Notes under the pieces: model-generated
What the model was told of the DNA's origin: nothing
Databases searched by the model: none
Seen by the model: the letters and a program-made list of their open reading frames with translations, nothing else
Shown: positions 29,622 through 42,940 of the stretch, piece after piece
Layout of the letters: every line of letters begins with the position of its first letter
Numbering within the stretch: the stretch's first letter is position 1
Assembly (NCBI GenBank): GCA_947454235.1
Contig: CANGIY010000009.1
Span: 1-64,000, forward strand
Origin: Chitinophagaceae bacterium
GTDB lineage: Bacteria > Bacteroidota > Bacteroidia > Chitinophagales > Chitinophagaceae
DNA: 64,000 bases
Reading direction: 5' to 3'
Translations under genes and position numbers: made by a program

Positions 29622-30611
29622 ATGTCAGAGAAATTTAAGAAGTCCGGTCGGCAATTTGTGTTATCGGACAGTTCACTCAATGTATACGGATTCAGGCTGC
29701 TTACATCAGGGTACCAGCTTGAGTCGTTTCAAAAGAATCCCATTGGTTATTATATGCATCGGAGAGAAGATGGCATTGCGCTTAAGTGGGATGATTTACG
29801 AATAGAAGGTGATACGATTGTAGGTACACCGGTTATCAATTTATCGAACCAACGCGGAGACCAGACATTTGATGAAATTGAACACGGTTTTTTGAATGCC
29901 GCCAGTGTTGGTCACATCGTAGTGCTGGAATATAGCAATGACCCGTCAATGATGTTGCCGGGACAAACCGGACCAACGATTACAAAATGGTACAACAAAG
30001 AATGCAGTTTGGTGGACATACCGGGTAATTGCAATGCATTGACCAACTTATACGATGCCCAGGAGAATGCGTTGATGTTACCAGACTTAATGGCAACGGG
30101 CAGTTTACCATTTACCGGTTTGAGCGACACTATAAAGAAGGGCTTATTGCTCGATGCAACAGCTACAACAGCGGAAGCAGAACAGGCGCTTATGGTTCTT
30201 TTGGACAAGCATCAAAAAAATGAGGCAGAGCTTCAGCAGTTACGTGACAACAAGGAACAACTGGAGCGCGAAGTAGCGGCACAAAAAGCTGAGCAATCAA
30301 AGAATAAGGTCAATTCAATTTTAGCCAAGGCGCTTGAAGACAGGAAAATAACTGTAGCCGTTCAGCAAAGATTAGCAGCTGACTATGCGCAAAATCCCGA
30401 AGGGTTGTTACAGCTTGTGAGCGCTTTACCTGAATACAAAAGTATTACGGAGAACATCAGACTATCTGCTCAAAACAATTTTGCCAACTGGAGTTGGGAT
30501 GATTTTGAAAAAAACGACCCTACCGGCAAACACCTCAATGAATTGAGAGCGAGCGACCCAGCCAAATACCAGTTCATTTTTGAAGCAAAGTTTGGCGCAA
30601 CGAAAAAATAG
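29622..30611 (+). CDS. Phage prohead protease/scaffold-like protein
   Basis: 329 residues from the ATG at 29622; a GTG nine codons earlier is in frame but less likely. The first roughly 140 residues look like a phage maturation protease: GYYMHRREDGIALKWDD, RGDQTFDEIEHGFLNAASVGH with the G-x-L-x-A-x-S-V-G element, and the WYNKECSLVDIPGNCNA strand. A Lys/Glu/Gln-rich coiled coil at about 195-240 fits a fused scaffold domain, as in Mu I. It would process and shape the shell formed by the next gene. The catalytic residues cannot be fixed by eye, so the protease call is by order and pattern. Confidence 0.6.
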   Translation: MSEKFKKSGRQFVLSDSSLNVYGFRLLTSGYQLESFQKNPIGYYMHRREDGIALKWDDLRIEGDTIVGTPVINLSNQRGDQTFDEIEHGFLNAASVGHIVVLEYSNDPSMMLPGQTGPTITKWYNKECSLVDIPGNCNALTNLYDAQENALMLPDLMATGSLPFTGLSDTIKKGLLLDATATTAEAEQALMVLLDKHQKNEAELQQLRDNKEQLEREVAAQKAEQSKNKVNSILAKALEDRKITVAVQQRLAADYAQNPEGLLQLVSALPEYKSITENIRLSAQNNFANWSWDDFEKNDPTGKHLNELRASDPAKYQFIFEAKFGATKK

Positions 30612-30644
30612 ATTCAAAAATTTCTTTTATAAACCAACACCATT

Positions 30645-31556
30645 ATGGCAATTCAAAGAGAAATATGGCAAGACCATATTGAGGGAAACCTATTTAAGAA
30701 CAATGAGTTTCTGTTAGCATCAACCGATGCAGGGCAGTATGTACTACAAGGCAAGGTGGTACACATACCGCAAGCAGGAGCAGCACCCAACATTGTTAAG
30801 AACAGAACAAGCTTACCGGGTACGATTGTTCAGCGTACAGACACTGACATCACGTACACGCTTGACGAGTACACCACTGATCCGATTTTGATTCCATATG
30901 CAGAGACTATTGAGCTCAGTTATAACAAAAGGGAAAGCGTTCTGGGTGAGTATGAATCTTCATTAAAACAGACCATTGCAGACAATTTGATTTTCAATTG
31001 GGCAGTATCAGGAGCAGGCACATTTGCACGTACGACAGGTGACGCAGTGTCAAGCCATCTTACCGGTACAACAGGCAACAGAAAACTCTTTAAAGCAAAA
31101 GACCTGAAAGCTGCACAATTGTTGCTAAACAAGCAAAATGTACCGATGGAGAACAGGTATGCGCTGATGAGTGCTGACATGTTCCAACAGCTTACGGATG
31201 ATCTTTCTGTTTCGGAATACAGGGATTTCAGTACGGCTTATGATGCGAAAGACGGTGTTCTCGGAAGGCTTTTCGGTTTTAAAATTATGATGCGTACGGG
31301 TGTGGTGACTTATACCAACGACACTATACCTGCATTGAACTCTTATGGAGCAACACCGGGTACAGCTGACAATGATGCAGTATTATGCTGGCACATTGAT
31401 GCGGTAGAAAGAGCCCTAGGAGACGTGAAATTCTTTGAACGAGTGGATGACCCGACTTACTACGGTAGCATTTACAGTGCGAGCGTTAGAATTGGAGGTC
31501 GTAAACGCAGAGCAGACAACAAGGGTGTTGTAGCGCTCATTCAAGCTGCGGCGTAG
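30645..31556 (+). CDS. Major capsid protein (HK97-fold type)
   Basis: 303 residues. The gene lies directly after the protease. Typical traits are an N-terminal arm, GKVVHIPQAGAAPNIVKNR, an E-loop-like stretch around IVQRTDTDITYTLDEY, a long central helix (ESSLKQTIADNLIFNWA), NRYALMSADMFQQLTDD, and a C-terminal P-domain pattern ending in YYGSIYSASVRIGGRKRRADNKG. This matches Mu-like capsid proteins of Bacteroidota in length and layout. A 13 bp hairpin follows the stop, which may raise the capsid transcript relative to the tail genes. Confidence 0.68.
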   Translation: MAIQREIWQDHIEGNLFKNNEFLLASTDAGQYVLQGKVVHIPQAGAAPNIVKNRTSLPGTIVQRTDTDITYTLDEYTTDPILIPYAETIELSYNKRESVLGEYESSLKQTIADNLIFNWAVSGAGTFARTTGDAVSSHLTGTTGNRKLFKAKDLKAAQLLLNKQNVPMENRYALMSADMFQQLTDDLSVSEYRDFSTAYDAKDGVLGRLFGFKIMMRTGVVTYTNDTIPALNSYGATPGTADNDAVLCWHIDAVERALGDVKFFERVDDPTYYGSIYSASVRIGGRKRRADNKGVVALIQAAA

Positions 31557-31569
31557 AAAATCCAAATTT

Positions 31570-31605
31570 GATTTCAGGTGCAATATTTAAGATGCACCTG
31601 AAATC
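31570..31605 (+). terminator. Strong hairpin after the capsid gene
   Basis: GATTTCAGGTGCA (31570-31582) pairs perfectly with TGCACCTGAAATC (31593-31605), ten-base loop. No U-run follows, so it may act as a partial terminator or as a 3' end stabiliser. Confidence 0.55.
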
Positions 31606-31638
31606 TATCACCTTAAAATTACCTATAAACCCCTAATT

Positions 31639-32076
31639 ATGTTTTGCAGCAAATTTAAAGCAGCTATTAAGAAGCTGTTGAATCAATACGATTCTTATCT
31701 GGAAGCGCATGTTGAATCTGCACTTTCAATTACTACTGCCATCAAAAAAATCATTGGCAGTCCGGTGGTTGATATTCTAACTGCAATTATTCCAGGCAAT
31801 ATCGATGATGTAATCAAGGAGCAGTTACGTGCGGCACTTGATAAAACCATTCTGGCATTAAGTATGGTTGAGCGGTGTAAAGCAAGTGTTGATGCTGAGA
31901 CACGACTGAAGTGTTTTGTTGAACAACTTTCGATTGCAGAACCGCAACTAAGAGATGCTATTCTACAAAAGTTAGCAAGTATGCTTGTTGGAGAACTTGA
32001 TGGACAGAGATTCAAACAGAGTATTTATGATTTGTTCACCCAAGCCGGGTATACTGCAGTAAACCATTGTTTGTAA
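31639..32076 (+). CDS. Unknown helical protein in the phage cassette
   Basis: 145 residues, mainly helical, with a central hydrophobic stretch (VVDILTAIIPGNIDDVIKEQLRAAL) and four cysteines (at the start, in VERCKAS, in LKCFVE and at the end). It occupies the place where head-completion or connector proteins usually sit, between capsid and sheath, but I see no match to such families. It is bounded by hairpins on both sides (31570 and about 32144). It could be an accessory gene of the domesticated element. Confidence 0.55.
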   Translation: MFCSKFKAAIKKLLNQYDSYLEAHVESALSITTAIKKIIGSPVVDILTAIIPGNIDDVIKEQLRAALDKTILALSMVERCKASVDAETRLKCFVEQLSIAEPQLRDAILQKLASMLVGELDGQRFKQSIYDLFTQAGYTAVNHCL

Positions 32077-32190
32077 AGTTAGCGATGTGCTGAGAGCAGA
32101 GTTAGAAATCAATCGTCAAGCACCTAATTAGAATATTTTAAAAACAGTCGGGGTACGTCTTCTAAAGTCCCGATATAAAAAGACAAAAAA

Positions 32191-33366
32191 GTGGGAAGTG
32201 TAAATATTACGTTGGCTAACAACCAACTTGGGGCAACCCTTCAAACAAACGACGGAATTGCGGGCCTTGTATTGACAGGTCAGGATGATTCAGGTGGTTA
32301 TCATTTAGGTACACCAATTTTAGTTACAAGTCTGGCAAATTTGGCTGTTCAGGGAATAACTGAAGCATCAAATGCTTTTGCGCACAGGCAGGTAAAGGAA
32401 TTTTACGATGAAGCGGGGCAAGGTGCACAATTATACCTCATGCTTGTCCCAGCCACGCAGAAAGTGAGTGATATTGCTGATCATACAAATGCCGATGGTG
32501 CTCTCAAACTATTGACGTTTGCACAGGGAAAGGTCAAATTGTTGGGCATAATGAGTGACGATACAGCAGTGGCCAGTGCTACCTCGGTGCCAACAGTGGT
32601 TTTGAACAGTTTAAATGAGGAAGTTTATACTGCGATTACGAAAATGAATGTATTGGCTGCGAGTTTCTTTGGAGATCAAAAGCCGTTCAGAGCCTTGATT
32701 GGTGCCACGTCTTACAATGACAGTTCAGCGGGATTAAGTAATTTGACAGCAGGTACCACCAATTCGAGAACTGCAGTTGTTTTAGGAGACACACAAACGG
32801 GATTATCGAGTGCGCTTGGGTTGGTATTGGGCCGGCTTTCAGCGATTCCAGTAATGAGAAAAGTGAGCAGGGTGCGCACTGGAGCCATGTCTAATAGTGC
32901 AGCTTACATTGGAAGCAATAGGGTAGAGACAATTGCCAGTGAATTGTCGGTGATTTCGGAGAAAGGATTTATTACCTGGTGGATTTACCCCAATGTATCA
33001 GGATATTTTTTATCGGGCGATGATACCTGCAGTTCGTTTTCTGACGACTACCATTCACTGGCACACGGCAGGGTTATTGACAAAGCGCATTTGCTTGCCT
33101 ATTCAACATTTGTACAAGAAGTTGATGATGAGGTACCAGTAAAGGCGGATGGCACCTTGGATTCTGGCTTTTGTAAGTGGTTAAGTCAGCAAATTTTAAA
33201 CCAAGTCAACAATACCATGACTGCGAACAATGAGATCAGTTCGGCGAGTTGTTTTATTGATCCGGTACAAAACATATTAAGTACCAACAGGCTGAATGTT
33301 GTATTGAGGATTGTACCCGTGGGATATGCCACTGATATAGAAATTAATCTAGGATTCGGGAGTTAG
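32191..33366 (+). CDS. Contractile tail sheath protein, DUF2586-like
   Basis: 391 residues, GTG start. The layout agrees with the short sheath proteins of Bacteroidota Mu-like phages: NITLANNQLGATLQTNDGIAGLVLTG at the start, a variable outer domain, SALGLVLGRLSAIPVMRKVSRVRTG in the middle, and KGFITWWIYPNVSGYFLSGDDTC followed by a C-terminal domain with LRIVPVGYATDIEINLGF. The last strand is the one that links subunits in contractile sheaths. Its presence shows the particle, if made, has a contractile tail. Confidence 0.72.
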   Translation: MGSVNITLANNQLGATLQTNDGIAGLVLTGQDDSGGYHLGTPILVTSLANLAVQGITEASNAFAHRQVKEFYDEAGQGAQLYLMLVPATQKVSDIADHTNADGALKLLTFAQGKVKLLGIMSDDTAVASATSVPTVVLNSLNEEVYTAITKMNVLAASFFGDQKPFRALIGATSYNDSSAGLSNLTAGTTNSRTAVVLGDTQTGLSSALGLVLGRLSAIPVMRKVSRVRTGAMSNSAAYIGSNRVETIASELSVISEKGFITWWIYPNVSGYFLSGDDTCSSFSDDYHSLAHGRVIDKAHLLAYSTFVQEVDDEVPVKADGTLDSGFCKWLSQQILNQVNNTMTANNEISSASCFIDPVQNILSTNRLNVVLRIVPVGYATDIEINLGFGS

Positions 33367-33406
33367 GCGGGTAATTGATTTTTAAAAACCAAAAAATTCA
33401 AAGGAA

Positions 33407-33841
33407 ATGGCTGGATTAGCATTTTTTGATAGTAAAGAATGTGAGTGGGCGGATATGTCAGTGATATTTGCCGGTTCGCTGCTCACTAAAATCAGGGGAG
33501 TAAAGTATAAAGCTTCCAAGGACAAGCAACTACTTCATGCGGCGGGTGACGAGCCAATAAGTATACAGAGCGGCAACCGGACTTATGAAGGTCAGATAAA
33601 AGTGTTGAAGGGTGCGCTTGATGACATGAATAAAGCAGCACAAGAGGCAGGCGGTAATGATATACTGGACATGCAGTTTGATATAGTAATTACGTACAAG
33701 GCTTCCGGTGCGAGGCCATTGCAAACGGATACATTGCACGGTGTTGAAGTGAAAGATTTTGAAAAAGGCTGGGACCAAGGTGCGAAAAACATGGAGATTT
33801 CCTTGCCCATTGTGTTTTTGCAATTGGAAACAGAACAATAG
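33407..33841 (+). CDS. Tail tube protein
   Basis: 144 residues, beta-rich, directly after the sheath as in contractile tails. It begins MAGLAFFDSKECEWADMSV and contains ADEPISIQ-type and YEGQIKVLKGALDDM elements, VITYKASG, and a closing MEISLPIVFLQLE strand. Size and position fit the inner tube (P2 FII/XkdM-like role). Confidence 0.58.
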   Translation: MAGLAFFDSKECEWADMSVIFAGSLLTKIRGVKYKASKDKQLLHAAGDEPISIQSGNRTYEGQIKVLKGALDDMNKAAQEAGGNDILDMQFDIVITYKASGARPLQTDTLHGVEVKDFEKGWDQGAKNMEISLPIVFLQLETEQ

Positions 33842-33875
33842 AAACGCCTCACTCAAACGAAAATAAAAGTAAAAA

Positions 33876-34205
33876 ATGAGTATCGAGAATTCGACACAGA
33901 CCTTAGTTGGTCAGGAGAGTCAGGAGACAATTGACCAATGGAAAACTAAGTACCGGCAAGGAATATATGCACTTGAAGTTGATGGGCATATTGTGTACTT
34001 CAAGAACCCAAGCAGGCATGAAATAAATTGTGCGATGAGCAAGGCCGACAGAGAAAGAGCATTGGATGTATTTGAAGAACTGGCAAAGTTGACATTTTTA
34101 GGTGGCAGCGAAGAGGTTTTAAGCGATGACCAAATGTTTGTTGGCGTTTGCCAGGAGATGAAAGTAAAACTTGAAGGCAAGCGGGCTAAACTGGTAAACT
34201 TATAG
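33876..34205 (+). CDS. Tail assembly chaperone, zero-frame part
   Basis: 109 residues, helical, with YALEVDGHIVYFKNPSRHEINCAMSKAD and ERALDVFEELAKLTFLGG. In tailed phages a small chaperone gene lies between tube and tape measure and is extended by a programmed frameshift (lambda G/GT, P2 E/E'). Here the next frame (-1) is open right across the stop at 34203-34205 and runs to 34381. The chaperone would coat the tape measure during tube assembly. Confidence 0.55.
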   Translation: MSIENSTQTLVGQESQETIDQWKTKYRQGIYALEVDGHIVYFKNPSRHEINCAMSKADRERALDVFEELAKLTFLGGSEEVLSDDQMFVGVCQEMKVKLEGKRAKLVNL

Positions 34206-34381
34206 GGGAATCACGTGGTGGTCCGGAGCATGATTCCCTAGGGTATTTTGAGACCCTGATTGAGTTTTATTTACCCGGATTGCGGCATGGGCAGCTGACA
34301 GATGAGGAGTTTGCGCAAAAACTGGCTCACTTGAATTATATAAGAAGTGAGTTGCAGAATACATCAGAAAACACCGATTAA
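34190..34381 (+). CDS. Tail chaperone extension, reached by -1 frameshift
   Basis: Open in the -1 frame from the codon after TAA at 34187-34189 to TAA at 34379-34381. The peptide (GESRGGPEHDSLGYFETLIE and on, ending SENTD) is charged and plausible, but the frame has no ATG, GTG or TTG before a TTG about 25 codons in. The shift must occur between 34190 and 34205, in CTGGTAAACTTATAG. AAC could re-pair as AAA, but no canonical slippery heptamer is present. The fusion would be about 165 residues. Confidence 0.5.
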   Translation, partial: TGKLIGESRGGPEHDSLGYFETLIEFYLPGLRHGQLTDEEFAQKLAHLNYIRSELQNTSENTD

Positions 34382-34397
34382 AACCTAGATCGACATT

Positions 34398-35261
34398 ATG
34401 AAAAGCAATGAAACCACATCCTTTTTTCAAACAATTGCCGCGAGTTGGTTTTTTACGCTTTTGGATAATGATCTTTTTTTCGGGGTTCAAAAAGTTGTTG
34501 CGTTACCCTCACCCTTTAGAAGTACTAAGCGTAGCGTTGAACGAGGTAAGCATCAAATTTTTTTGAATACAGGAATAGCTAGCGTAGTGCCAGGTACAAT
34601 TTTGCCAGCAACTAATAGTTTAAGCGAAACTTACTTTGTTTTGGTTCAACAAAATTTTTTGAAACCAGCATATATTTATTCTAAGTTCAACAACCAAGTT
34701 AATCGAGGCAGTTTTTTAATTTTTTCGAATGCTGGAAAAGCGAAAGATGTATATGAAACCGTTGCGGGAATTGTGCTAAATAGCAAGCAACAAAGTTTAT
34801 CTTATAACGAAAGACCAACGGGAAATAAAAGTTATTTGACCTCGCAATCTAGTATTTCAAAACTATATAGTTCGCTTCAGCTTTTTTTTCCAAATTCTAG
34901 TGAAGTGTACAGAGTTCATCTAATTTCTAATTCGTTTTCAGGAAAAAGTCAAGCTGCCTTTACGACTAGATACCCTCAAGTACAGTTTCAAAATGGAAAA
35001 TCAGGTGAACAAAACAACAGATATTATGATTTCCAAAGCTGGGAACAAACGGGACATGTAGCCCAACATTCCAGATCGCACTTACAAAAGACAAGTACAA
35101 GAAATTCCACCAATTCGACTCGACAAGTTGTTTTACAATTGAACCGGTCGATCATTGAACATTTGGAGATTCATGTTGCTGATACTCGTGAAGTAGGCAG
35201 GAGATTGCGAACACAGATTGAAGAAGAGCTAATTGACATTCTTAAAAACCTTATACCATAA
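34398..35261 (+). CDS. Short protein in the tape-measure position
   Basis: 287 residues, just after the chaperone where the tape measure is expected. It is far shorter than usual (often 600-1500). It is rich in Ser, Asn, Gln, Phe and Lys, has a hydrophobic start (FFQTIAASWFFTLLDND) and a helical C-terminus (QLNRSIIEHLEIHVADTREVGRRLR and onward). No transmembrane hairpin or lytic domain is seen. At the usual 1.5 Å per residue it would set a tail of about 40 nm. The assignment rests on position only. Confidence 0.4.
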   Translation: MKSNETTSFFQTIAASWFFTLLDNDLFFGVQKVVALPSPFRSTKRSVERGKHQIFLNTGIASVVPGTILPATNSLSETYFVLVQQNFLKPAYIYSKFNNQVNRGSFLIFSNAGKAKDVYETVAGIVLNSKQQSLSYNERPTGNKSYLTSQSSISKLYSSLQLFFPNSSEVYRVHLISNSFSGKSQAAFTTRYPQVQFQNGKSGEQNNRYYDFQSWEQTGHVAQHSRSHLQKTSTRNSTNSTRQVVLQLNRSIIEHLEIHVADTREVGRRLRTQIEEELIDILKNLIP

Positions 35262-35272
35262 AATAATTACAG

Positions 35273-35896
35273 ATGCCCGATTTAGTATTTGATTTACCAG
35301 CACTGTTCGAACAAACTTTTGGCTATCGGACACGTGCATTCCAACCTGAATTTAGTGAAGTAAAAGGGAGCAAGGGCGATAGAACAGAGCAGGGAAGCCA
35401 AGGTGCACCGTACTACGGAGTTGACGCAGCGGGGAAAGAGTATTTTTTGCCTGTTACGATCAGCTTTGGAATTGACAGTGATGGGTCAAATAGTACTGGT
35501 TCCATAAGTAGATACATGTTACCCTATCCCGTGGTGAGCATAAGCGCGGAAAAGCACATCATTGAAACACAATTGACTGAGCGGCGTGGTACAGTAAAGG
35601 AACTGGTGAACACTACTGACTATACCATTAAGGTCAAGGGTTTTGTTATAGGTGCAGACAATGAGTTTCCTGAAGCAGAAGTTGAAATGTTGAGAAACTT
35701 GTACGAGCAAAATCAACCACTTTCTCTGGAATGTCCTTTGACAGATATTTTTCTACTTCGGCCAGATAGAAGTGGAAGTGATATGGTGGTGATCACTGAC
35801 TTGAAATTATTATCGGTAACCGGGGTAAAAAACGTACGTCCCTACGAATTAACGTTCAGAAGTGATGAACCCTTCAATTTAATTTCAGTAAAATGA
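35273..35896 (+). CDS. DUF6046-like phage tail protein
   Basis: 207 residues. It resembles the DUF6046 family found in Bacteroidota prophages between tape measure and hub. Visible features are DLVFDLPALFEQTFGYR, YYGVDAAGKEYFLPVTISFG, MLPYPVVSISAEKHIIETQLTERRGTVKEL and YTIKVKGFVIG, then ENNLYEQNQPL-type and VVITDLKLLSV elements. It is probably a baseplate or tail-initiation part (comparable in position to Mu or P2 proteins joining tube to hub). Its stop overlaps the hub start by four bases (ATGA). Confidence 0.62.
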   Translation: MPDLVFDLPALFEQTFGYRTRAFQPEFSEVKGSKGDRTEQGSQGAPYYGVDAAGKEYFLPVTISFGIDSDGSNSTGSISRYMLPYPVVSISAEKHIIETQLTERRGTVKELVNTTDYTIKVKGFVIGADNEFPEAEVEMLRNLYEQNQPLSLECPLTDIFLLRPDRSGSDMVVITDLKLLSVTGVKNVRPYELTFRSDEPFNLISVK

Positions 35897-36912
35897 TGTT
35901 TACACTCGACTCTGAAATTGAGATAGGTTCCTTTAAGTTTAAAGGAGTTTATGACTTAGTTATCAAAAAATCGATTTTTTCGACTGTGGAAACGGCCGTG
36001 ATTAAGTTGCCAGCAAATGCGAAAGTTAAAAGAGACGGAAAGACTACACCAGTACTAGTAAAAACAAATACCCAATTTAATGTTGGAGACGAAGTGACAA
36101 TCAAACTAGGCTACAACAATTCGCTTAAACAGGAGTTTAAAGGTTTTGTGAAGAGTATGGATATGAATAATCCGCTTGAAGTGCAATGTGAGGGGTATTC
36201 ATATTTATTGGGAAAAACGAACATCAAACTTTCTGAAACTAATATATCTGTAAAAGACCTGTTGGGGCTGGCTGTAAAGAATATTAGTCCGGCAATTGAA
36301 GTGCAATGCGACTTGGATGTAACATTAGTCAATGTTCAAGTTGATGGTACTGCGAACGATGTAATAGCCGCAATAAGCAGATTTAGTGACGGATGTATAA
36401 AGTGCTTTTTTGTAGCATACAACAAGTTGTGGTGTGGATTTATCAATTCAAGGTATTCAGAAGGTGAGCAAGTGTTTCCAAAAACTACAGTGAACTTCAG
36501 ACCCGGGTTTAACCTAGTTGTCAACAATACTTTGAACTTCAGGGGCATTAAGGACGTTCCAACGAAGGTAGTATATGGAAAGCGCATGGATCGAGGTGTG
36601 TACATTTTTGGTGAATCAGACAAAAAGTATGGCATATCTGGGAGGCATAAGCGAACATTAAATCAAGTTACAACTAAATCGGCTTTGCTGGCATTGGCGA
36701 ATGAGAAGGCTGCAGATGTGAATTATGACGGATTTTCGGGGGCAATTAGAACTTTTCTTGAACCGTATACTCAACCGACATTTGCGGCAGCACTTTATGA
36801 ATCTGGAAATGGTAATTATTTGGGTTCCTACCTGGTGGAAAAAGTAACCACGCACTTTGGTGTTGGTGGCGCCTGGAGAGAAGTAGAGCTTGGAATTAAA
36901 ATTCAATCATAA
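35893..36912 (+). CDS. Baseplate hub protein (gp27/P2 D-like)
   Basis: 339 residues. The pattern of gp27/late-control-D proteins is visible: an N-terminal VIKKSIFSTVETAVIKLP domain, GDEVTIKLGYNNSLKQEFKGFVKSMDMNNPLEVQCEGYSYLL, a middle part with VQVDGTANDVIAAISRFSDGCIKCFF and NLVVNNTLNFRGI, and a C-terminal NGNYLGSYLVEKVTTHFGVGG. It would form the trimeric hub on which the spike sits. The start is set by the four-base overlap with the preceding gene. Confidence 0.62.
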   Translation: MMFTLDSEIEIGSFKFKGVYDLVIKKSIFSTVETAVIKLPANAKVKRDGKTTPVLVKTNTQFNVGDEVTIKLGYNNSLKQEFKGFVKSMDMNNPLEVQCEGYSYLLGKTNIKLSETNISVKDLLGLAVKNISPAIEVQCDLDVTLVNVQVDGTANDVIAAISRFSDGCIKCFFVAYNKLWCGFINSRYSEGEQVFPKTTVNFRPGFNLVVNNTLNFRGIKDVPTKVVYGKRMDRGVYIFGESDKKYGISGRHKRTLNQVTTKSALLALANEKAADVNYDGFSGAIRTFLEPYTQPTFAAALYESGNGNYLGSYLVEKVTTHFGVGGAWREVELGIKIQS

Positions 36913-36916
36913 CACA

Positions 36917-37471
36917 ATGAATAGCAAAATTACAAGCTTGAAAAATCAATTTGAATCTCTGATTCAGAGGCAGGTTGAATTGAGATCTGGAACGGTTGTC
37001 TCGGGAAGTTACAACGGCGATGAAAATACAATTTCAGTGTCATTAGACGCGTCAGATACAATTGTTACAGATGTAAAATTGAACGCAGTTTCGCAAAATA
37101 CTCAGGGGTTTTATCTTATTCCTGAAAATGACAGCTATGTTGTGATAGCAACGATTGACGGAGCAGGTGAATGGTTTTTAGTAAGGACGTCAAACCTTCA
37201 GAAAGTGGTGGTGCTTATTGGGTCAGTTTCCTGTGAAATAGACGGAAATACCATTCGTTTCAATAACGACAGCGATTCGGTCATAGAAATTGAAGACCGA
37301 CACATAAAGATTAATACAAGTACTGAAAGTCTTTACACCTGGTTGAAGGACCTTTTGATAAAAATTAGTGCTATTACTGTACCTACCGGAACCGGTGTTA
37401 GTGGACTACCTAACAATTCCGCTGAATTTAACGCACTGATTTCGAGATTGGGGAATTTATTGTCTTCTTAA
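36917..37471 (+). CDS. Baseplate spike protein (gpV/gp5-like)
   Basis: 184 residues from the ATG at 36917, four bases after the hub stop. The N-terminal helix is followed by an OB-fold-like stretch (SGSYNGDENTISVSLDASDTIV), QNTQGFYLIPENDSYVVIATIDG, and repeated short beta words (SCEIDGNTIRFNNDSDSVIEI and so on) that fit a trimeric beta-helix needle. The C-terminus (TVPTGTGVSGLPNN) is typical of phage spikes from this phylum. No enzymatic lysozyme domain is present. Confidence 0.55.
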   Translation: MNSKITSLKNQFESLIQRQVELRSGTVVSGSYNGDENTISVSLDASDTIVTDVKLNAVSQNTQGFYLIPENDSYVVIATIDGAGEWFLVRTSNLQKVVVLIGSVSCEIDGNTIRFNNDSDSVIEIEDRHIKINTSTESLYTWLKDLLIKISAITVPTGTGVSGLPNNSAEFNALISRLGNLLSS

Positions 37472-37482
37472 AATTAAAATAA

Positions 37483-37704
37483 ATGCCACTTAATACACCT
37501 GCGCTTAAAAGTGCACTTAAATCTGCATTCTTAGCTAATCTGCCCGCTGCAACTCCCACCCAAATTACGCAAATCGAAGCTTTGAGTGCCTCCATAGCAT
37601 CTGCCATACAAGTTTATGTGCAAGGAGCAACTATAACATATACCGCTGGTTTAACGAATTCAGGAGGGCCGGTGGTAGGTGCTTTTGGAAATATAATTAC
37701 CTAA
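37483..37704 (+). CDS. Small unknown tail-module protein
   Basis: 73 residues: a helical N-terminal half (PALKSALKSAFLANL, IEALSASIASAIQVYV) and a Gly/Thr-rich end (GATITYTAGL, GGPVVGAF). Small proteins of this shape often follow the spike gene in Bacteroidota and proteobacterial Mu-like phages; no function is known. It is not a PAAR protein: the His/Cys metal ligands are missing. Confidence 0.55.
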   Translation: MPLNTPALKSALKSAFLANLPAATPTQITQIEALSASIASAIQVYVQGATITYTAGLTNSGGPVVGAFGNIIT

Positions 37705-37717
37705 TAAACTGTAGTCT

Positions 37718-38017
37718 ATGGCACGATTGATGAACGATATACGCATTGATGAAAATGAGGATTTAGTATTCTCCAATGGCGATTTTTTGGTGGAGGAAAG
37801 CACAAGCATTCACCAGCAACAAATCATACTCAACAATAAAGGCGACTTCAAACAGAATCCTACTGTTGGTGTCGGTGTTTTTGAGTACTTCAACGATGAA
37901 GAGGAAAAGGGATTGATAAGAGCCATTTCGGTTGAATTTGCAAAAGACGGAATGGACGTGAACAGTATAACAATAGATAAGTCTGGGAAATTGATGACTC
38001 AGGCAACTTACAAATAA
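37718..38017 (+). CDS. Baseplate wedge protein (GpW/gp25-like)
   Basis: 99 residues. DIRIDENEDLVFSNGDFLVEES at the start and IHQQQIILNNKGDFKQNPTVGVGVFEYFNDEE in the middle follow the W/gp25 pattern (iaqnI-x-xiL-x-t-x-x-Ge-x-x-x-p-x-x-G). The acidic, short protein would join the baseplate wedge. MARL could also start at the second methionine (37730). Confidence 0.6.
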   Translation: MARLMNDIRIDENEDLVFSNGDFLVEESTSIHQQQIILNNKGDFKQNPTVGVGVFEYFNDEEEKGLIRAISVEFAKDGMDVNSITIDKSGKLMTQATYK

Positions 38018-38025
38018 CCTTTTTT

Positions 38026-38259
38026 ATGGGAAATGTTGTAGTACAACCTAATCAGACCTTTGCTGATATTTCATTGATGTACTGTGGTACTCTTGAATGC
38101 GCTATGGAGATCATGAAACAAAATGATTTTAGTATTTCAGATATACCCATTTCAGGTACTGAAGTACAGATCGCTAGAATTGATTTGCCAATAGATGAAG
38201 AGGCCTTGAAATATTTTCAGCAAAACAAAGTAAAGCCGGGGACTGCGACCGGCATTTAA
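38026..38259 (+). CDS. LysM-like tail protein X
   Basis: 77 residues carrying one LysM-like unit (VVQPNQTFADISLMYCGTLE and IMKQNDFSISDIPISGTEVQIA). Such proteins (P2 X) bind the hub or help it attach. Eight bases separate it from the gp25-like gene and 18 from the next. Confidence 0.62.
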   Translation: MGNVVVQPNQTFADISLMYCGTLECAMEIMKQNDFSISDIPISGTEVQIARIDLPIDEEALKYFQQNKVKPGTATGI

Positions 38260-38277
38260 AACACACAAATTTTTTTT

Positions 38278-39105
38278 ATGGCGAGAACTATTTCGCAGAT
38301 TCAGCAGTCGATAATCGACACTAAAAATGCACAGCCAGTATTAAACGACCTTTCCAGTACGAGCAACGTTTCGGTATGGATGTTGTGGACTTATGTAGTT
38401 GCTGTTTGTCAGTGGGTATTAGAAAAGCTATTTGATGCTCATAGGGAGGAAGTGAGTCAATTACTGGCAAAGCAGAAACCACACACCCTACAGTGGTATG
38501 TTTCAAAAGTCAAGGAGTTTCAATATGGTGTGGCATTGCCGGCAGGATCAGATACTTACTTGTCAATCTCCAGCGACCCTGCAATTGCGATTATCAGTTA
38601 TGCTGCCGCAGTAGAATTGACAAATATGATTCGAATAAAAGTTGCGTCGGGTACTGTTGGGTCATTGGCGCCTATCACAACGGCTCAGCTTACAGCAACA
38701 ACAGCTTACATGCAGCAAATCAAAGATGCAGGTGTAAGGATTCAATTGACGAGTGGAAATGCAGATAACCTGAAACTGACTTTAAAAATTTACTACGATC
38801 CTTTGGTTCTCGATGCAACGGGTGCCCGCTTAGACGGAACTTCCGTAAGCCCTGTAAAGGATGCTATTAATTTGTTTTTAGCAAGTCTGCCTTTCAATGG
38901 TGTGTTCATAGTCAATAAATTGATTGGAGCCCTACAACAGATAGATGGTGTCGTGATTGGGCACGTAATAAGTGCATTAGCAAATTATGCATCATTGCCT
39001 TATACTTCAATTGGTATTGAGTATACGCCTGATGCCGGTTATATGAAACTCGATGAGTCTTTCTTTGACGCCAATGTGATTTACATTTCTTACACTAGTT
39101 TATAA
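38278..39105 (+). CDS. Baseplate J-like protein
   Basis: 275 residues. Features are RTISQIQQSIIDTKNAQPVLNDL at the start, VSVWMLWTYVVAVCQWVLEKLFDAH, KVKEFQYGVALPAGSDTY, and VSPVKDAINLFLASLPFNGVFIVNKLIGALQQIDGV, which fits the conserved J/Mu gp47 C-terminal pattern. It is shorter than typical gpJ. It would clamp neighbouring wedges in the baseplate. Confidence 0.58.
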   Translation: MARTISQIQQSIIDTKNAQPVLNDLSSTSNVSVWMLWTYVVAVCQWVLEKLFDAHREEVSQLLAKQKPHTLQWYVSKVKEFQYGVALPAGSDTYLSISSDPAIAIISYAAAVELTNMIRIKVASGTVGSLAPITTAQLTATTAYMQQIKDAGVRIQLTSGNADNLKLTLKIYYDPLVLDATGARLDGTSVSPVKDAINLFLASLPFNGVFIVNKLIGALQQIDGVVIGHVISALANYASLPYTSIGIEYTPDAGYMKLDESFFDANVIYISYTSL

Positions 39106-39115
39106 TTACTTTACG

Positions 39116-39622
39116 ATGGCTCGTTTTTTTGAAGTTGATTTTCAACGACTTATCCAAATTTTATTGCCGGTAAGATGGCGCAAAGAAAAACAAAGTGCCT
39201 GGCTGGGGGCACTTTGTAATCCTATTTTGGAGTTATACAATGCATTTATGCAAAATAGGAATTCGAACTTATACAGCTCAAGCCACAATAGTCAGGTTGT
39301 GTTTTTGAACGAGATGTTAAATGACACCTATGACCCAATAGACAGACGAATTTACATTTCTGACAGCTCAAACTTTGACCCATTGTATGTATATAGGGAT
39401 GCTGAGAACAGACCATTGTGGCTGGGACTTGAGTCAGAAGTTGGTCTTACTGCATTTCCCGATCCTCAATGGTTATATACCAATTCAGAGTCCAGTATGA
39501 GTGTGTATGCATTCATAGTTTGGGTTCCCTTTACGATAAGTTTCGACACGCTGCGTATGCGGGCAATCATTGACCAATATCGACTTCCTTCTAAAAACTA
39601 CTACACAATACTAAACTTCTAA
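39116..39622 (+). CDS. Baseplate/tail protein I-like
   Basis: 168 residues. It follows gpJ as P2 I or Mu gp48 does. MARFFEVDFQRLIQILLPVRWRKEKQ and AWLGALCNPILELYNAFMQ are helical; a beta part follows (DDTYDPIDRR-like, ISDSSNFDPLYVYRD, FIVWVPFTISFD). The assignment is by position and length. Confidence 0.48.
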   Translation: MARFFEVDFQRLIQILLPVRWRKEKQSAWLGALCNPILELYNAFMQNRNSNLYSSSHNSQVVFLNEMLNDTYDPIDRRIYISDSSNFDPLYVYRDAENRPLWLGLESEVGLTAFPDPQWLYTNSESSMSVYAFIVWVPFTISFDTLRMRAIIDQYRLPSKNYYTILNF

Positions 39623-39633
39623 AAGAAATAATA

Positions 39634-40464
39634 ATGAAGAAAATTGATTTCTCGCATCCGGGTGGGCTACCACTTACGCAGGATAGACTTGACTTTTTAC
39701 AACAATCTTACCTTGAGACAATTGATGTGTTATCTCAGGTGGGTGTAAATGGAATTGAGCCGATAGGAGTGAATGGTATGGAGGTTACTATACCGACAGC
39801 AGGTACTACAAATGTTACCCCTGGCTGGTTTTACTATAATGGTGAGATGATTTATTTTTTGGGGGGTACAGTTACGTACAGTGGTGGAGATGTGCCACTT
39901 GTTGCAATTTCAGATAGCTCAACGGATCTGACTTACAACGATGGAAGCGTGTTTACAGCCTTGCATGAGAAAGTTGGTAGTTTGACCACCGGGCCTTCAA
40001 CGACAGACCCGACTCATTTTCCATTGAGTTCATTACAAAGTTTCTATACCGGATTTGGGATAAATGGTCGAGAAACAAGTTGGAACACTCTCGGAGTATC
40101 GACACCTGCATCTCAGGGCAATGTTACAGGTATCATTTACTACAAGAAAAATTTGATTACAAATACGCTCCAGATAAGTGGTAATCTCACAGTTAATATG
40201 GCGCAAAACTTAGCCTCGTCGCCAGGTGCGATATTTTATCTAATGGGTACGTTACCTTCAGGGTACTTGCCCGCTAATCAAGTGTACTTTACCAGTTACT
40301 ACTACTCTGCAAATCTTTTCAAAGATGATCTAGGTGTTGCATGGATAAAGCAGTTTACGAGTGTTTTAAATCCAAGCGGGCAAATAGTTGTTAATTTCAT
40401 CAAGCCAGATATATCTATATCAGCGTATTCAGTTTGTTTCAATACGATATTGCCGCTTGATTAA
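39634..40464 (+). CDS. Tail fibre-like protein
   Basis: 276 residues, last of the cassette. The N-terminus (KKIDFSHPGGLPLTQDRLDFLQQSYLE) is a familiar attachment region of Bacteroidota tail fibres and structural proteins. The rest is Thr/Ser/Gly-rich and beta-structured, with PGWFYYNGEMIYFLGGTV and IDGR-type turns. It would decide what the tail binds. No chaperone for fibre assembly is present. The stop codon shares the tetranucleotide TTAA with the stop of mreD on the opposite strand. Confidence 0.52.
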   Translation: MKKIDFSHPGGLPLTQDRLDFLQQSYLETIDVLSQVGVNGIEPIGVNGMEVTIPTAGTTNVTPGWFYYNGEMIYFLGGTVTYSGGDVPLVAISDSSTDLTYNDGSVFTALHEKVGSLTTGPSTTDPTHFPLSSLQSFYTGFGINGRETSWNTLGVSTPASQGNVTGIIYYKKNLITNTLQISGNLTVNMAQNLASSPGAIFYLMGTLPSGYLPANQVYFTSYYYSANLFKDDLGVAWIKQFTSVLNPSGQIVVNFIKPDISISAYSVCFNTILPLD

Positions 40465-41006
40465 TGTGATTTTGCAACATGCTGACGGGTAAATAGGAGT
40501 ACATAAATGAGTATAAAAACCATTGATGTAATAAATGAAGTTGCAATTTTAAGCATTAACGCCCCGATGCTGTTGAACCCCCATGACTCCAACGAAAAAA
40601 AAACGATGTGGTGTAGCAAAAGCAAGAATCCACAGAAAACCAAAAAGGGGCTCCAACCCATGTTTTTGACTGAAGGTTCCATATTGACGTATTCGGTGGG
40701 GTTTCTTGGTAACAAGGCATTTAGAACATTTGTACGCAAATAAGCTAATAAAATAAGAGCGGCTGCATGCATGCCGGCAGTGTTCATAAAGCTATCAACT
40801 GCTAAGCCCATTAAAAATCCAAGTATAAGCAGCACCCAAACGGGCGTTTCAAACGGCAGCAATAATATAAAGAGCGGATAAATTAAAGGATTGAACAAGG
40901 CACCAGATGGGCTTGTAAACCAATGCAGCGTAATTTTATTGAGCACAATTACTTGTAACATCAACAGAATACAGAAACGAAATATGTTTTTTAGATAAAC
41001 GTTCAT
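40461..41006 (-). CDS. mreD: Rod shape-determining protein MreD
   Basis: 181 residues, about five membrane segments (for example FCILLMLQVIVL, PLFILLLPFETPVWVLLILGFLMGLAVDSF and SMVFILIYVLLF). Works with MreB and MreC in the elongation complex. It follows mreC by one base. In many Bacteroidota the next genes would be the PBP2 and RodA genes; here the phage cassette begins directly after its stop instead. Confidence 0.85.
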   Translation of the reverse strand: MNVYLKNIFRFCILLMLQVIVLNKITLHWFTSPSGALFNPLIYPLFILLLPFETPVWVLLILGFLMGLAVDSFMNTAGMHAAALILLAYLRTNVLNALLPRNPTEYVNMEPSVKNMGWSPFLVFCGFLLLLHHIVFFSLESWGFNSIGALMLKIATSFITSMVFILIYVLLFTRQHVAKSH

Positions 41007-41007
41007 A

Positions 41008-41871
41008 TTACGGTTTCTTGTTTGATGGTTCAGTTAATTGTTTTCTTTCAACTTCCATTTGATTGTCTAATACATAGACGTATTGAAGATTTCTAAAGTT
41101 AGTGGCAGGTTTCAACATTATTTGTTGTCTGCCACTTTTTTTATTGATTTCTACTGAAGTTACTGTTCCAATGAGTACATCAGGCGGGAAAGTATTTCCG
41201 TAAGATGTCGTAAAAACAGAATCACCTTTTTTCACCTTAGCTTCGGCAGGCATTTCTTTCATTACCAATACGTCGGGGCGCTCGTTGTCCCAGTTGGTTG
41301 ACTTAAACGTTCCGTCTTTGAGGCGGGCGCTCACTTGATATTTATTGGTATTAAGAATGGAAAGGACGCTGGCAAAATGCTGGGAGACATATTCTACTCT
41401 TCCTACCAGTCCATTTCCTGAAATTACGCTCATTCCTTTAGCAATTCCATCTTTCAAGCCTCGATTGATAGTAATGTAGTTATTGACATTATCAACCTGG
41501 TTATCTATAACCCTTGCAGTTCGGTAAACATAGGAAGCATATTGAACTACATGAACTGACGTATCTTTTGTTGGTAGGGCTCTTTGAACTGTGAAGTCCT
41601 TCAACGTATCTACACTGTGTAGTGCATCAACAATTTTCCTAAGCCTCATGTTTTCACTCAATAAACTATCGTTCATTGAGCCAAGGTTCATATAATAAAA
41701 TAAGTCAGTTTTCTTTTTGTATACAATACCGGCAACTGCATTCGAAGATGATATTATATCATCACCTTGAATCGTTCGGGAACGGGCAATAAGTACAATA
41801 CTTACTATTTCAAGTAAAGCGAACAATATCAGATTGAAAAATCGTCTGATAATTAAAATGAAATTGCGCAT
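41008..41871 (-). CDS. mreC: Rod shape-determining protein MreC
   Basis: 287 residues. One N-terminal membrane segment (about 10-28), a short coiled coil (LLSENMRLRKIVD) and the two-barrel MreC core with ARVIDNQVDNVNNYITINRGLKDGI, GMSVISGNGLVGRVEYV, FAFSVLSI-like and VMKEMPAEAKVKKGDSVFTTSYGNTFPPDVLIGTV. It links MreB to the wall synthases in the periplasm. Middle gene of mreBCD. Confidence 0.92.
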   Translation of the reverse strand: MRNFILIIRRFFNLILFALLEIVSIVLIARSRTIQGDDIISSSNAVAGIVYKKKTDLFYYMNLGSMNDSLLSENMRLRKIVDALHSVDTLKDFTVQRALPTKDTSVHVVQYASYVYRTARVIDNQVDNVNNYITINRGLKDGIAKGMSVISGNGLVGRVEYVSQHFASVLSILNTNKYQVSARLKDGTFKSTNWDNERPDVLVMKEMPAEAKVKKGDSVFTTSYGNTFPPDVLIGTVTSVEINKKSGRQQIMLKPATNFRNLQYVYVLDNQMEVERKQLTEPSNKKP

Positions 41872-41908
41872 ACCCGTTTAAAGTACTGAAAGAAAAAGTT
41901 GGCTTAAA

Positions 41909-42940
41909 TTATTTCATTAAAAACGGCATTTTTGTAATATTCTTGAGTGCCATGCCAGTACCTCTTACTACCGCTCTTAGTGGATCATCGGCCACATGAA
42001 CAGGAAGTTTAATTTTATTAGAAATTCTTTTATCCAATCCTCTTAACAGAGCACCGCCTCCTGTAAGGTAAAGTCCACGCCTGTAGATGTCAGCCGCCAA
42101 CTCTGGTGGCGTGCTTTCCAAAGCTTTGAGAATAGCTTCTTCAACCTTGAAAATTGATTTATCTAACGCTTCAGCAACTTCCTGATAGCTCACCATAATT
42201 TGTTTTGGAATACCTGTAACAAGGTCACGACCATTTACAGCGATATCATCAGGAGGATTATCTAAATCTTTTAAAGCAGAGCCTACGTGAATCTTAATTT
42301 GTTCAGCAGTGCGCTCACCAATCATCAAACTGTGATAGCGACGCATAGCTTCTGTAATGTCAGCCGTAAATTCATCACCCGCAATCCGAATACTTTGGTC
42401 GCAAACAATACCAGCTAAAGCAATTACAGAGATACCTGTTGTACCACCGCCTATATCAATAATCATATTGCCGGTTGGTTCTTCAACATCAATACCTATT
42501 CCTAAGGCCGCTGCCATAGGTTCGTGAATCATATAAACTTCCTTAGCACCTGCTTGTTCAGCTGAATCTCTTACGGCTCTTTTTTCGACTTCAGTGATGC
42601 TACTCGGAATACAAATTACCATTCTCCAGCTAGGCGGAAACATTGGTTTCTTTGGGTAAACGAGTTTAATCATTTCCCTGAGCATTCCTTCAGCCGCATT
42701 AAAATCCGCAATCACTCCATCTTTGAGGGGTCTGATTGTTTTGAGATTTTCATGGGTTTTCTCGTGCATCATCATGGCTTTTTTACCAACTGCCACAATT
42801 TTATTTGTCGAGCGGTCAATTGCCACAATCGAGGGTTCGTCAACAACCACCTGATCATTGTGAATTATAAGTGTGTTGGCAGTGCCAAGATCTATTGCAA
42901 TTTCCTGTGTAAGAAATTTAAAAAAGCCCAGAAAGCTCAT
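41909..42940 (-). CDS. mreB: Rod shape-determining protein MreB
   Basis: 343 residues, actin fold. IAIDLGTANTLI forms phosphate loop 1, IDIGGGTTGISVIALAGI phosphate loop 2 and LTGGGALLRGLDKRI the adenosine motif. Polymerises under the membrane to guide lateral wall synthesis. First gene of mreBCD; a CAACTTTG at 42966-42973 on the minus strand may be a weak -7 box. Its presence implies a rod-shaped stage in this organism. Confidence 0.97.
   Translation of the reverse strand: MSFLGFFKFLTQEIAIDLGTANTLIIHNDQVVVDEPSIVAIDRSTNKIVAVGKKAMMMHEKTHENLKTIRPLKDGVIADFNAAEGMLREMIKLVYPKKPMFPPSWRMVICIPSSITEVEKRAVRDSAEQAGAKEVYMIHEPMAAALGIGIDVEEPTGNMIIDIGGGTTGISVIALAGIVCDQSIRIAGDEFTADITEAMRRYHSLMIGERTAEQIKIHVGSALKDLDNPPDDIAVNGRDLVTGIPKQIMVSYQEVAEALDKSIFKVEEAILKALESTPPELAADIYRRGLYLTGGGALLRGLDKRISNKIKLPVHVADDPLRAVVRGTGMALKNITKMPFLMK

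Follow-up and report, generated by a model that had tools for sequence, protein, structure and literature searches.

The window analysed here, a stretch of 64,000 nucleotides from a Chitinophagaceae bacterium (assembly GCA_947454235.1, contig CANGIY010000009.1, positions 1 to 64,000 of the forward strand), carries a capsid-plus-contractile-tail gene cassette at 29622–40464. The cassette probably belongs to a domesticated Mu-type contractile phage, independently domesticated and inherited vertically as a multi-locus element resembling a gene transfer agent (GTA). On balance we lean towards a functional contractile-tailed GTA of Chitinophagaceae that would have arisen by an independent domestication at mreD of the clade ancestor, and whose packaging genes would have been invaded by the host-type genes c1 and c2 and moved away in several lineages. 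Such an agent would be the first in Bacteroidota.

The cassette is a plus-strand series of late genes with every frame open, from protease/scaffold through fibre. Its order is protease/scaffold, capsid, a 145-amino-acid (aa) protein, sheath, tube, chaperone, short tape measure, two hubs and spike, followed by a small protein, gp25, LysM-like protein, gpJ, gpI and fibre. The original prediction had described this run as dense and intact, and the open frames, library matches and homology to relatives confirm it. The cassette is bordered by host genes, which were named by reading of their translations: a TonB receptor and a lipoprotein on the left, and mreDCB-carB on the right. Between these host genes, no terminase, portal, MuF, transposase, integrase or endolysin was found in the window.

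Packaging genes at a second locus

We searched 40 genome handles, three of which repeat a genome and four of which are prophage-type controls, with a terminase profile derived from relatives. In the genome of the window (G000), the profile detected two copies, one on contig C5 in a Mu-like prophage and one on contig C31. The latter belongs to an operon of terS, terL (507 aa), c1, adaptor, c2, portal and tail completion genes, in which terS, terL, adaptor, portal and tail completion are intact. The terminase matches phrog_38, the head-tail adaptor matches phrog_195 with a Gp36-like match just under the Pfam cut-off, and the Mu-type portal (372 aa) matches the entire PF06074 profile (E = 5.8e-62). 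A search for terminase and portal genes elsewhere in the genome had been suggested along with the original prediction, and it overturns part of it: the list of absent genes is correct for the window and fails for the genome as a whole. MuF, neck and transposase genes were not found at the C31 packaging locus. This locus is flanked by host genes (biotin synthesis, PriA and GH3-like versus agmatinase-like, by reading of translations). As C31 is 27 kb long and the window contig (C9) is 134 kb long, the two loci are non-adjacent in the assembly.

A related terL is present in 38 of the 40 handles, the exceptions being G144 and G216. The profile matches just once in 25 handles, of which four are prophage-type controls and 21 are cassette genomes. 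No second related terminase was found in these 21 genomes with this profile, helpers of other phage families being outside its reach. The terminase motif SRELAKSTRT occurs in 28 of 32 copies, has a single-residue change in the other four, and is kept in unsplit copies. The portal has 353–421 aa in uncut and unbroken cassette-type sets and 430–480 aa in prophages, except those of G097 (408 aa) and G105 (406 aa). The intact terS, terL and portal genes at the second locus, together with the related terL in nearly all handles, point to a particle that most likely packages DNA.

Two further genes lie within the packaging operon. The first, c1, encodes a secreted protein of 185 aa and lies between terL and adaptor in 25 genomes, and in G207 and G218 as detected by profile. 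It was not found in G092, G201, G208 and G089, and the G195 contig ends before that place. It was found in no other locus among L001–L241, and it has no match in 50,697 phage records. Its structure model contains a confident small domain, for which no PDB match with E ≤ 0.001 was found. The second, c2, which encodes a membrane protein of 119 aa on the opposite strand, is located in 22 genomes between the adaptor and portal genes. Separately, three loci, L212 (G205:C126), L213 (G201:C52) and L214 (G201:C125), have terL with neither adaptor nor portal nearby, one of them with terS, and the G205 copy at L212 is additional to a complete packaging locus. It seems that in the G201/G205 subclade the module was duplicated and split further.

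Chromosomal site and co-diversification with the host

A capsid match was found in 24 of 195 sampled genomes of the family, 12 of which (G000 included) have at least 63% identity. At 34 of 41 loci, including a few prophages (L058, L060), the capsid is 61–79% identical to that of the window. In the genus Flavipsychrobacter, sheath is present in 10 and terL in eight of 11 genomes, prophage copies included; judged by contig and place, the cultured F. stenotrophus RB1R16 is among the 11. In RB1R16, the cassette, terS and terL share a contig that ends directly behind terL, and neither adaptor nor portal was seen. Across 298 sampled genomes of the order, gpJ with identity above 44% was not found outside Chitinophagaceae.

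The site next to mreDCB was inspected in 37 genomes, from which G097 was left out as having no cassette of this kind. In 22 of the remaining 36, the starts of gpJ and mreB are 3.6–4.3 kb apart on a single contig. Hence, relatives do keep the same cassette at the same locus, a check that the original prediction had proposed. Two more genomes fit this site, G222 across a contig break and G069 with a decayed cassette about 10 kb from mreB. The cassette lies away from mreB in G089, G062 and G212. Nine genomes are undecided: mreB was not found in G092, contigs break off too early in G224, G005, G079, G225 and G216, and gpJ gave no match in G033, G144 and G176.

The position of the packaging module varies. 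Divergent packaging genes upstream of the protease, which is the prophage arrangement, are still visible in G166, G215, G195, G198, G199, G200, G214, G218, G033 and G092, where other genes separate the two modules. In G206 and G210, the packaging genes lie beyond mreDCB-carB on the far side from the cassette. Capsid and terL are about 19 kb apart on one contig in G203, about 22 kb in G171 (302-kb contig) and about 86 kb in G208 (360-kb contig). In G000, G196, G197, G202, G205, G207 and G209, the packaging module is on a separate contig from the cassette. By reading of translations, its flanks are common to subclades: a UbiD-like and a TPR-like gene in G171, G202, G203, G207 and G208, and a GalE-like gene and c5 in G196, G198, G205, G206, G209 and G210.

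Trees of rpoB, of ten concatenated cassette proteins and of five packaging proteins were compared by shared splits against 2000 label shuffles; four cassette rows and two packaging rows were less than half filled. The rpoB and cassette trees have 14 of 24 splits in common for 27 genomes (shuffle mean 0.17, maximum 3), the rpoB and packaging trees 10 of 22 for 25 genomes (shuffle maximum 4), and the cassette and packaging trees 11 of 22 (shuffle maximum 3). The Mantel r is 0.66 for rpoB–cassette, 0.57 for rpoB–packaging and 0.85 for cassette–packaging. None of 20000 permutations was as high, the rpoB–packaging value being barely above the top permutation (0.571 against 0.572). The agreement of the trees and the mreD synteny show that the element is inherited mostly vertically and has co-diversified with its host, G089 being the clear exception.

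Comparison with Mu-like prophages

The cassette class comprises 34 genomes, G089 among them, some of which are represented by part of their loci. In the locus stretches examined, none of the 34 has muF, neck, tnpA, muB or gam. Among ten prophage-type controls, MuF occurs in seven, neck in eight, transposase with MuB in two and Gam in two; the controls G097 and G105 have neither MuF nor neck. A genome-wide search with PF04233 detected MuF in seven of 33 cassette genomes, never on the cassette or the packaging locus. In six of these seven, the match falls within a known prophage locus, and the matches outside such loci are one in G069:C1 and two in G176 (C244 and C372).

G000 itself contains a Mu-like prophage at about 6148–37477 of C5 (L146, L147), which has transposase, MuB, MuF, neck, capsid and contractile tail genes, and its capsid is 48% identical to that of the window. 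At neither the cassette nor the packaging locus of G000 did we find what marks an active Mu-like prophage, namely transposase or MuB and a complete head-neck set linked to the late operon. In nine genome pairs carrying both kinds of element, the cassette copies have the higher identity in all nine for capsid and in eight for terL. The prophage at G209:C67 (L058, L216) has a capsid 67% identical to that of the window and lies near the base of the clade. It differs in being compact and in having MuF, neck, transposase and MuB, which make it a true Mu-like prophage; it is perhaps a living relative of the ancestor of the GTA-like element.

Purifying selection and a probable frameshift site

Ratios of nonsynonymous to synonymous substitution rates (dN/dS), another check put forward with the original prediction, were computed between relatives. 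Ten pairs were tried and those with dS under 3 were used; many were saturated, and the window is in none of them. The medians are 0.034 for capsid, 0.051 for sheath, 0.021 for tube, 0.056 for terL and 0.044 for portal. Those of the other genes are 0.06–0.14, so that the overall range is 0.02–0.14 apart from the tape measure (0.39). The fibre, with values of 0.03 and 0.12 in the two pairs computed, is not unusually variable. The cassette and packaging genes are under purifying selection between relatives.

The tail chaperone probably contains a programmed −1 frameshift site that is held at the codon level. Tail chaperones of other phages use programmed −1 frameshifting. The last three codons (V-N-L) before the chaperone stop are each a single codon in all 27 genomes, whereas 24 further residues are invariant and each of them, the tryptophan excepted, is encoded by at least two different codons. 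The −1 frame is open for 57–74 aa in the 21 cassette genomes examined. As the site also exists in most prophage controls, it was inherited from the phage and retained.

Gene content of the cassette

Proteins of the window were compared with phrogs and Pfam, those encoded from 37718 onward with phrogs only. The spike, LysM-like, gpI and fibre genes have no phrogs match and were named via position and homology to relatives. All features below are on the plus strand unless stated otherwise. The prohead protease/scaffold (29622–30611) matches phrog_11321 (E = 8e-56) and, just under the cut-off, Mu-like_Pro PF10123; its median dN/dS between relatives is 0.084. The major capsid protein (30645–31556) is an HK97/P22-type coat protein and matches phrog_267 (E = 7e-30), PF19821 and PF11651. 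The 145-aa protein (31639–32076) is conserved in the clade, being 23–59% identical to 27 relatives with a dN/dS of 0.061. Its low-confidence structure model is all-helical, and no fold match with E ≤ 0.001 was found.

The contractile tail sheath (32191–33366) matches PF10758 (DUF2586, E = 1.9e-52) and phrog_907, and the tail tube (33407–33841) matches phrog_9206 and phrog_4579. The tail assembly chaperone (33876–34205) is gpE-like by position and matches phrog_19076, a family without named function. Its −1 frame extension spans 34190–34381, with the probable frameshift site CTGGTAAACTTATAG at 34191–34205. The short tape-measure homologue (34398–35261, 287 aa) has no library match and is homologous to genes of up to 508 aa at the tape-measure position of relatives.

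Two hub proteins follow. The first is a hub-type protein with DUF6046 (35273–35896; PF19512, E = 1.8e-26; phrog_5233), and the second matches phrog_4930 (35893–36912; E = 1e-41). The spike (36917–37471), named by position, is kept in relatives and has no library match. It is followed by a conserved small protein of 73 aa (37483–37704) with homologues at the equivalent place in some relatives, the gp25-like baseplate wedge (37718–38017; phrog_120) and the LysM-like tail protein (38026–38259), which is kept in relatives. The length of the LysM-like protein is 74–89 aa in Flavipsychrobacter and in G062, G089 and G212, and 314–341 aa in the other genomes tabulated. The baseplate wedge gpJ (38278–39105), named by position, matches phrog_38413 (E = 5e-63; no named function); counting prophage copies, a search of 37 genomes detected it in 34. 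The gpI-like baseplate protein (39116–39622) and the tail fibre (39634–40464), also named by position, are kept in relatives. The host genes mreD, mreC and mreB (40461–42940, minus strand) are outside the particle genes and form a conserved chromosomal neighbour of the cassette. In relatives, a holin-like gene (c3, about 90 aa) and a CHAP endolysin gene (c4; PF05257, E = 4e-10) lie inside the cassette in 13 genomes each, and a c4 match is present in 22 of 37 genomes, prophage copies included.

Sequences upstream of the operons

Long inverted repeats are often common to the upstream regions of protease and terS within one genome; the mean overlap within genomes takes in G033, whose two upstream stretches overlap each other. 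The palindromic repeat TATGATAS-N13-STATCATA is located upstream of both operons in several genomes. It is dispersed, with up to 65 copies per genome (G203, G196, G197, G199, G206 and others). In counts for 12 genomes, G203 has 65 and G196 has 42 copies versus 6 and 8 in the reversed control, and G000, where the repeat is not enriched, has 3 versus 3. Since the repeat is dispersed genome-wide and its adjoining genes are of no evident common kind, we dropped the idea of a shared operator co-regulating both operons. A CACCTTTGTG-like motif at both operons was likewise not used as a shared promoter, as it may be an ordinary Bacteroidota promoter.

We also searched GTA-type loci (e.g., L148, L210 and L209) for the DnaA box consensus TTATCCACA, covering the 300 bp that precede each gene and its first 60 bp. 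A perfect box occurs at 10 of 29 terS and 3 of 32 protease genes, at none of the 30 sheath or 27 portal genes, and in 54 of 5702 background windows. In some genomes a DnaA box stands beside the dispersed palindrome.

Alternative explanations

Few GTAs have known genes: three families, from alphaproteobacteria and spirochaetes, are covered by PMC9662315, and PMC12946183 adds that of Faecalibacterium. The features of GTAs listed in PMC9662315 are descent from caudoviricetes, packaging of mostly random host DNA, endogenization often at multiple loci, incomplete packaging of the own genome in one particle, mostly vertical inheritance and DNA delivery. Three of these were found here. The particle proteins are caudoviricete-derived (PF06074 portal, phrog_38 terminase, PF10758 sheath and phrog_267 capsid), the element is fully endogenized at two host-flanked loci (C9 cassette and C31 packaging, with relatives alike), and it is mostly vertically inherited. 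As to packaging of its own genome, capsid and terL are about 86 kb apart on one contig in G208 and on separate contigs in G000. Packaging of random host DNA and DNA delivery are predicted properties, and we therefore use the label GTA-like.

Several observations speak against this reading. The tape measure of the window is the shortest complete one tabulated, smaller values coming from cut or split frames, and in the absence of MuF and neck proteins, assembly could be impaired. The cassette of the window has neither c3 nor c4, and c4 has no match elsewhere in G000. Compared with the nearest relative, G214, most synonymous distances of the window are saturated. Some copies are broken: terL is split in G079, the second hub is split in G062 and G089, the tape measure is in two frames in G201, and G069 has split portal, sheath and protease genes and no tail at the mreB site. 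G089 is a clear exception to co-diversification: the genome lies within the genus by rpoB, and its element falls outside by both element trees, is away from mreB, and is without c1 and c2. For terL of G166 versus G195, the prophage copies are more similar (0.72) than the cassette-type copies (0.61). GTA genes carry an amino-acid carbon-content signature, which was mixed and not consistently seen here. Finally, most relatives are metagenome-assembled genomes.

PBSX of Bacillus subtilis, a domesticated phage particle with a head, has a contractile tail and a single locus. The main rival, which we consider unlikely, is that the GTA-like element encodes a killer particle of this sort. Such a domesticated phage would take up host DNA without delivering it, and would be retained because its contractile tail kills competitors. 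The contractile tail would suit this function, as would a tape measure that is short and fast-changing. However, killing alone would require neither the conserved terminase nor the conserved portal, and the low dN/dS of the fibre does not indicate unusual variability. PBSX is described in PMC12946183 by its tailocin behaviour and killing function, and the element of the window further differs from it in being split between loci.

It is very improbable that the element is a prophage, active or decaying, or a helper-dependent phage satellite that was split by chance in the assembly. Some relatives are broken (G069, G079, G062 and G201), and the complete Mu-like prophage at C5 of the same genome could be a helper. 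However, host genes lie on both sides of both G000 loci, the mreD site is common to 22 genomes, the genes are under purifying selection, and the modules are apart on single long contigs (G208 and G171). The split by assembly error that the original prediction had named as its own refutation is thereby answered. A helper-dependent satellite is unlikely because the 21 cassette genomes have only one terminase-profile match, a search that did not cover helpers of other phage families.

Least credible is a shell-plus-tail particle without DNA, protein-filled or empty: no packaging gene is beside the cassette in the window, but the intact operon on C31, kept in relatives and congruent with the cassette, speaks against it. 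The original prediction had placed the particle, as one that does not package its own DNA, between a tailocin, a GTA and a protein-filled particle; the place between tailocin and GTA is retained, and the lack of packaging is not supported, given the intact terS, terL and portal at C31. Its view that the host keeps the cassette holds, as open frames, low dN/dS between relatives and the common mreD site lead us to reject a dead or decaying prophage. A tailocin or contractile injection system without a head would lack capsid, portal and terminase; it is rejected, since all three occur here and are kept with low dN/dS between relatives.

Discussion

If the GTA-like reading holds, both operons would be expressed in some cells. 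The protease/scaffold and coat protein would assemble a prohead on the portal, TerS and TerL would fill it with cellular DNA, and the tail would dock via the adaptor and completion protein. The particle would leave by lysis, for which many relatives have a CHAP endolysin in the cassette and the window does not, and its contractile tail would deliver DNA to kin cells.

The nearest layout is that of the Faecalibacterium GTA (FpGTA), for which particles and packaged DNA have been shown; it is reported to have two separate operons (about 125 kb apart in one strain), to be widespread in its host genus and to lack replication genes (PMC12946183). FpGTA is described there as podovirus-like, with capsid and terminase in one operon and tail and lysis genes in the other (PMC12946183). 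In contrast, the element of the window has head and contractile tail together and packaging apart. RcGTA-type GTAs presumably come from another phage ancestor than the element of the window with its Mu-type portal and DUF2586 sheath. According to PMC9662315, RcGTA and other alphaproteobacterial GTAs resemble the element in being caudoviricete-derived, endogenized, often multi-locus and co-diversified with the host. Porphyromonas phage phage012a (BK068093) and Flavobacterium phage lotta8-1 (Winoviridae) have a homologous capsid and upstream protease; lotta8-1 shares the PF10758 sheath and phage012a the divergently transcribed packaging genes. They differ in their size of 34–35 kb and in having portal plus MuF or neck and replication/transposition genes, the best capsid identity being 49%. 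Among the matches listed in literature text searches, there was no description of a GTA in Bacteroidota or of a Flavipsychrobacter prophage.

At least seven of 42 IMG/VR loci (L070, L072, L074, L075, L078, L080 and L084) are contigs of 11–12 kb with the cassette alone, from protease to gpI. They are probably chromosomal pieces listed as viruses, a warning that collections obtained by virus mining can include cassettes that belong to a host chromosome. Intermediates survive in which packaging is divergent beside the cassette, a few host genes away or far off, and because of them the steps of phage domestication are laid out. If the reading is true, the GTA kind would extend to Bacteroidota as a vertically inherited, multi-locus and contractile-tailed element across several Chitinophagaceae genera.

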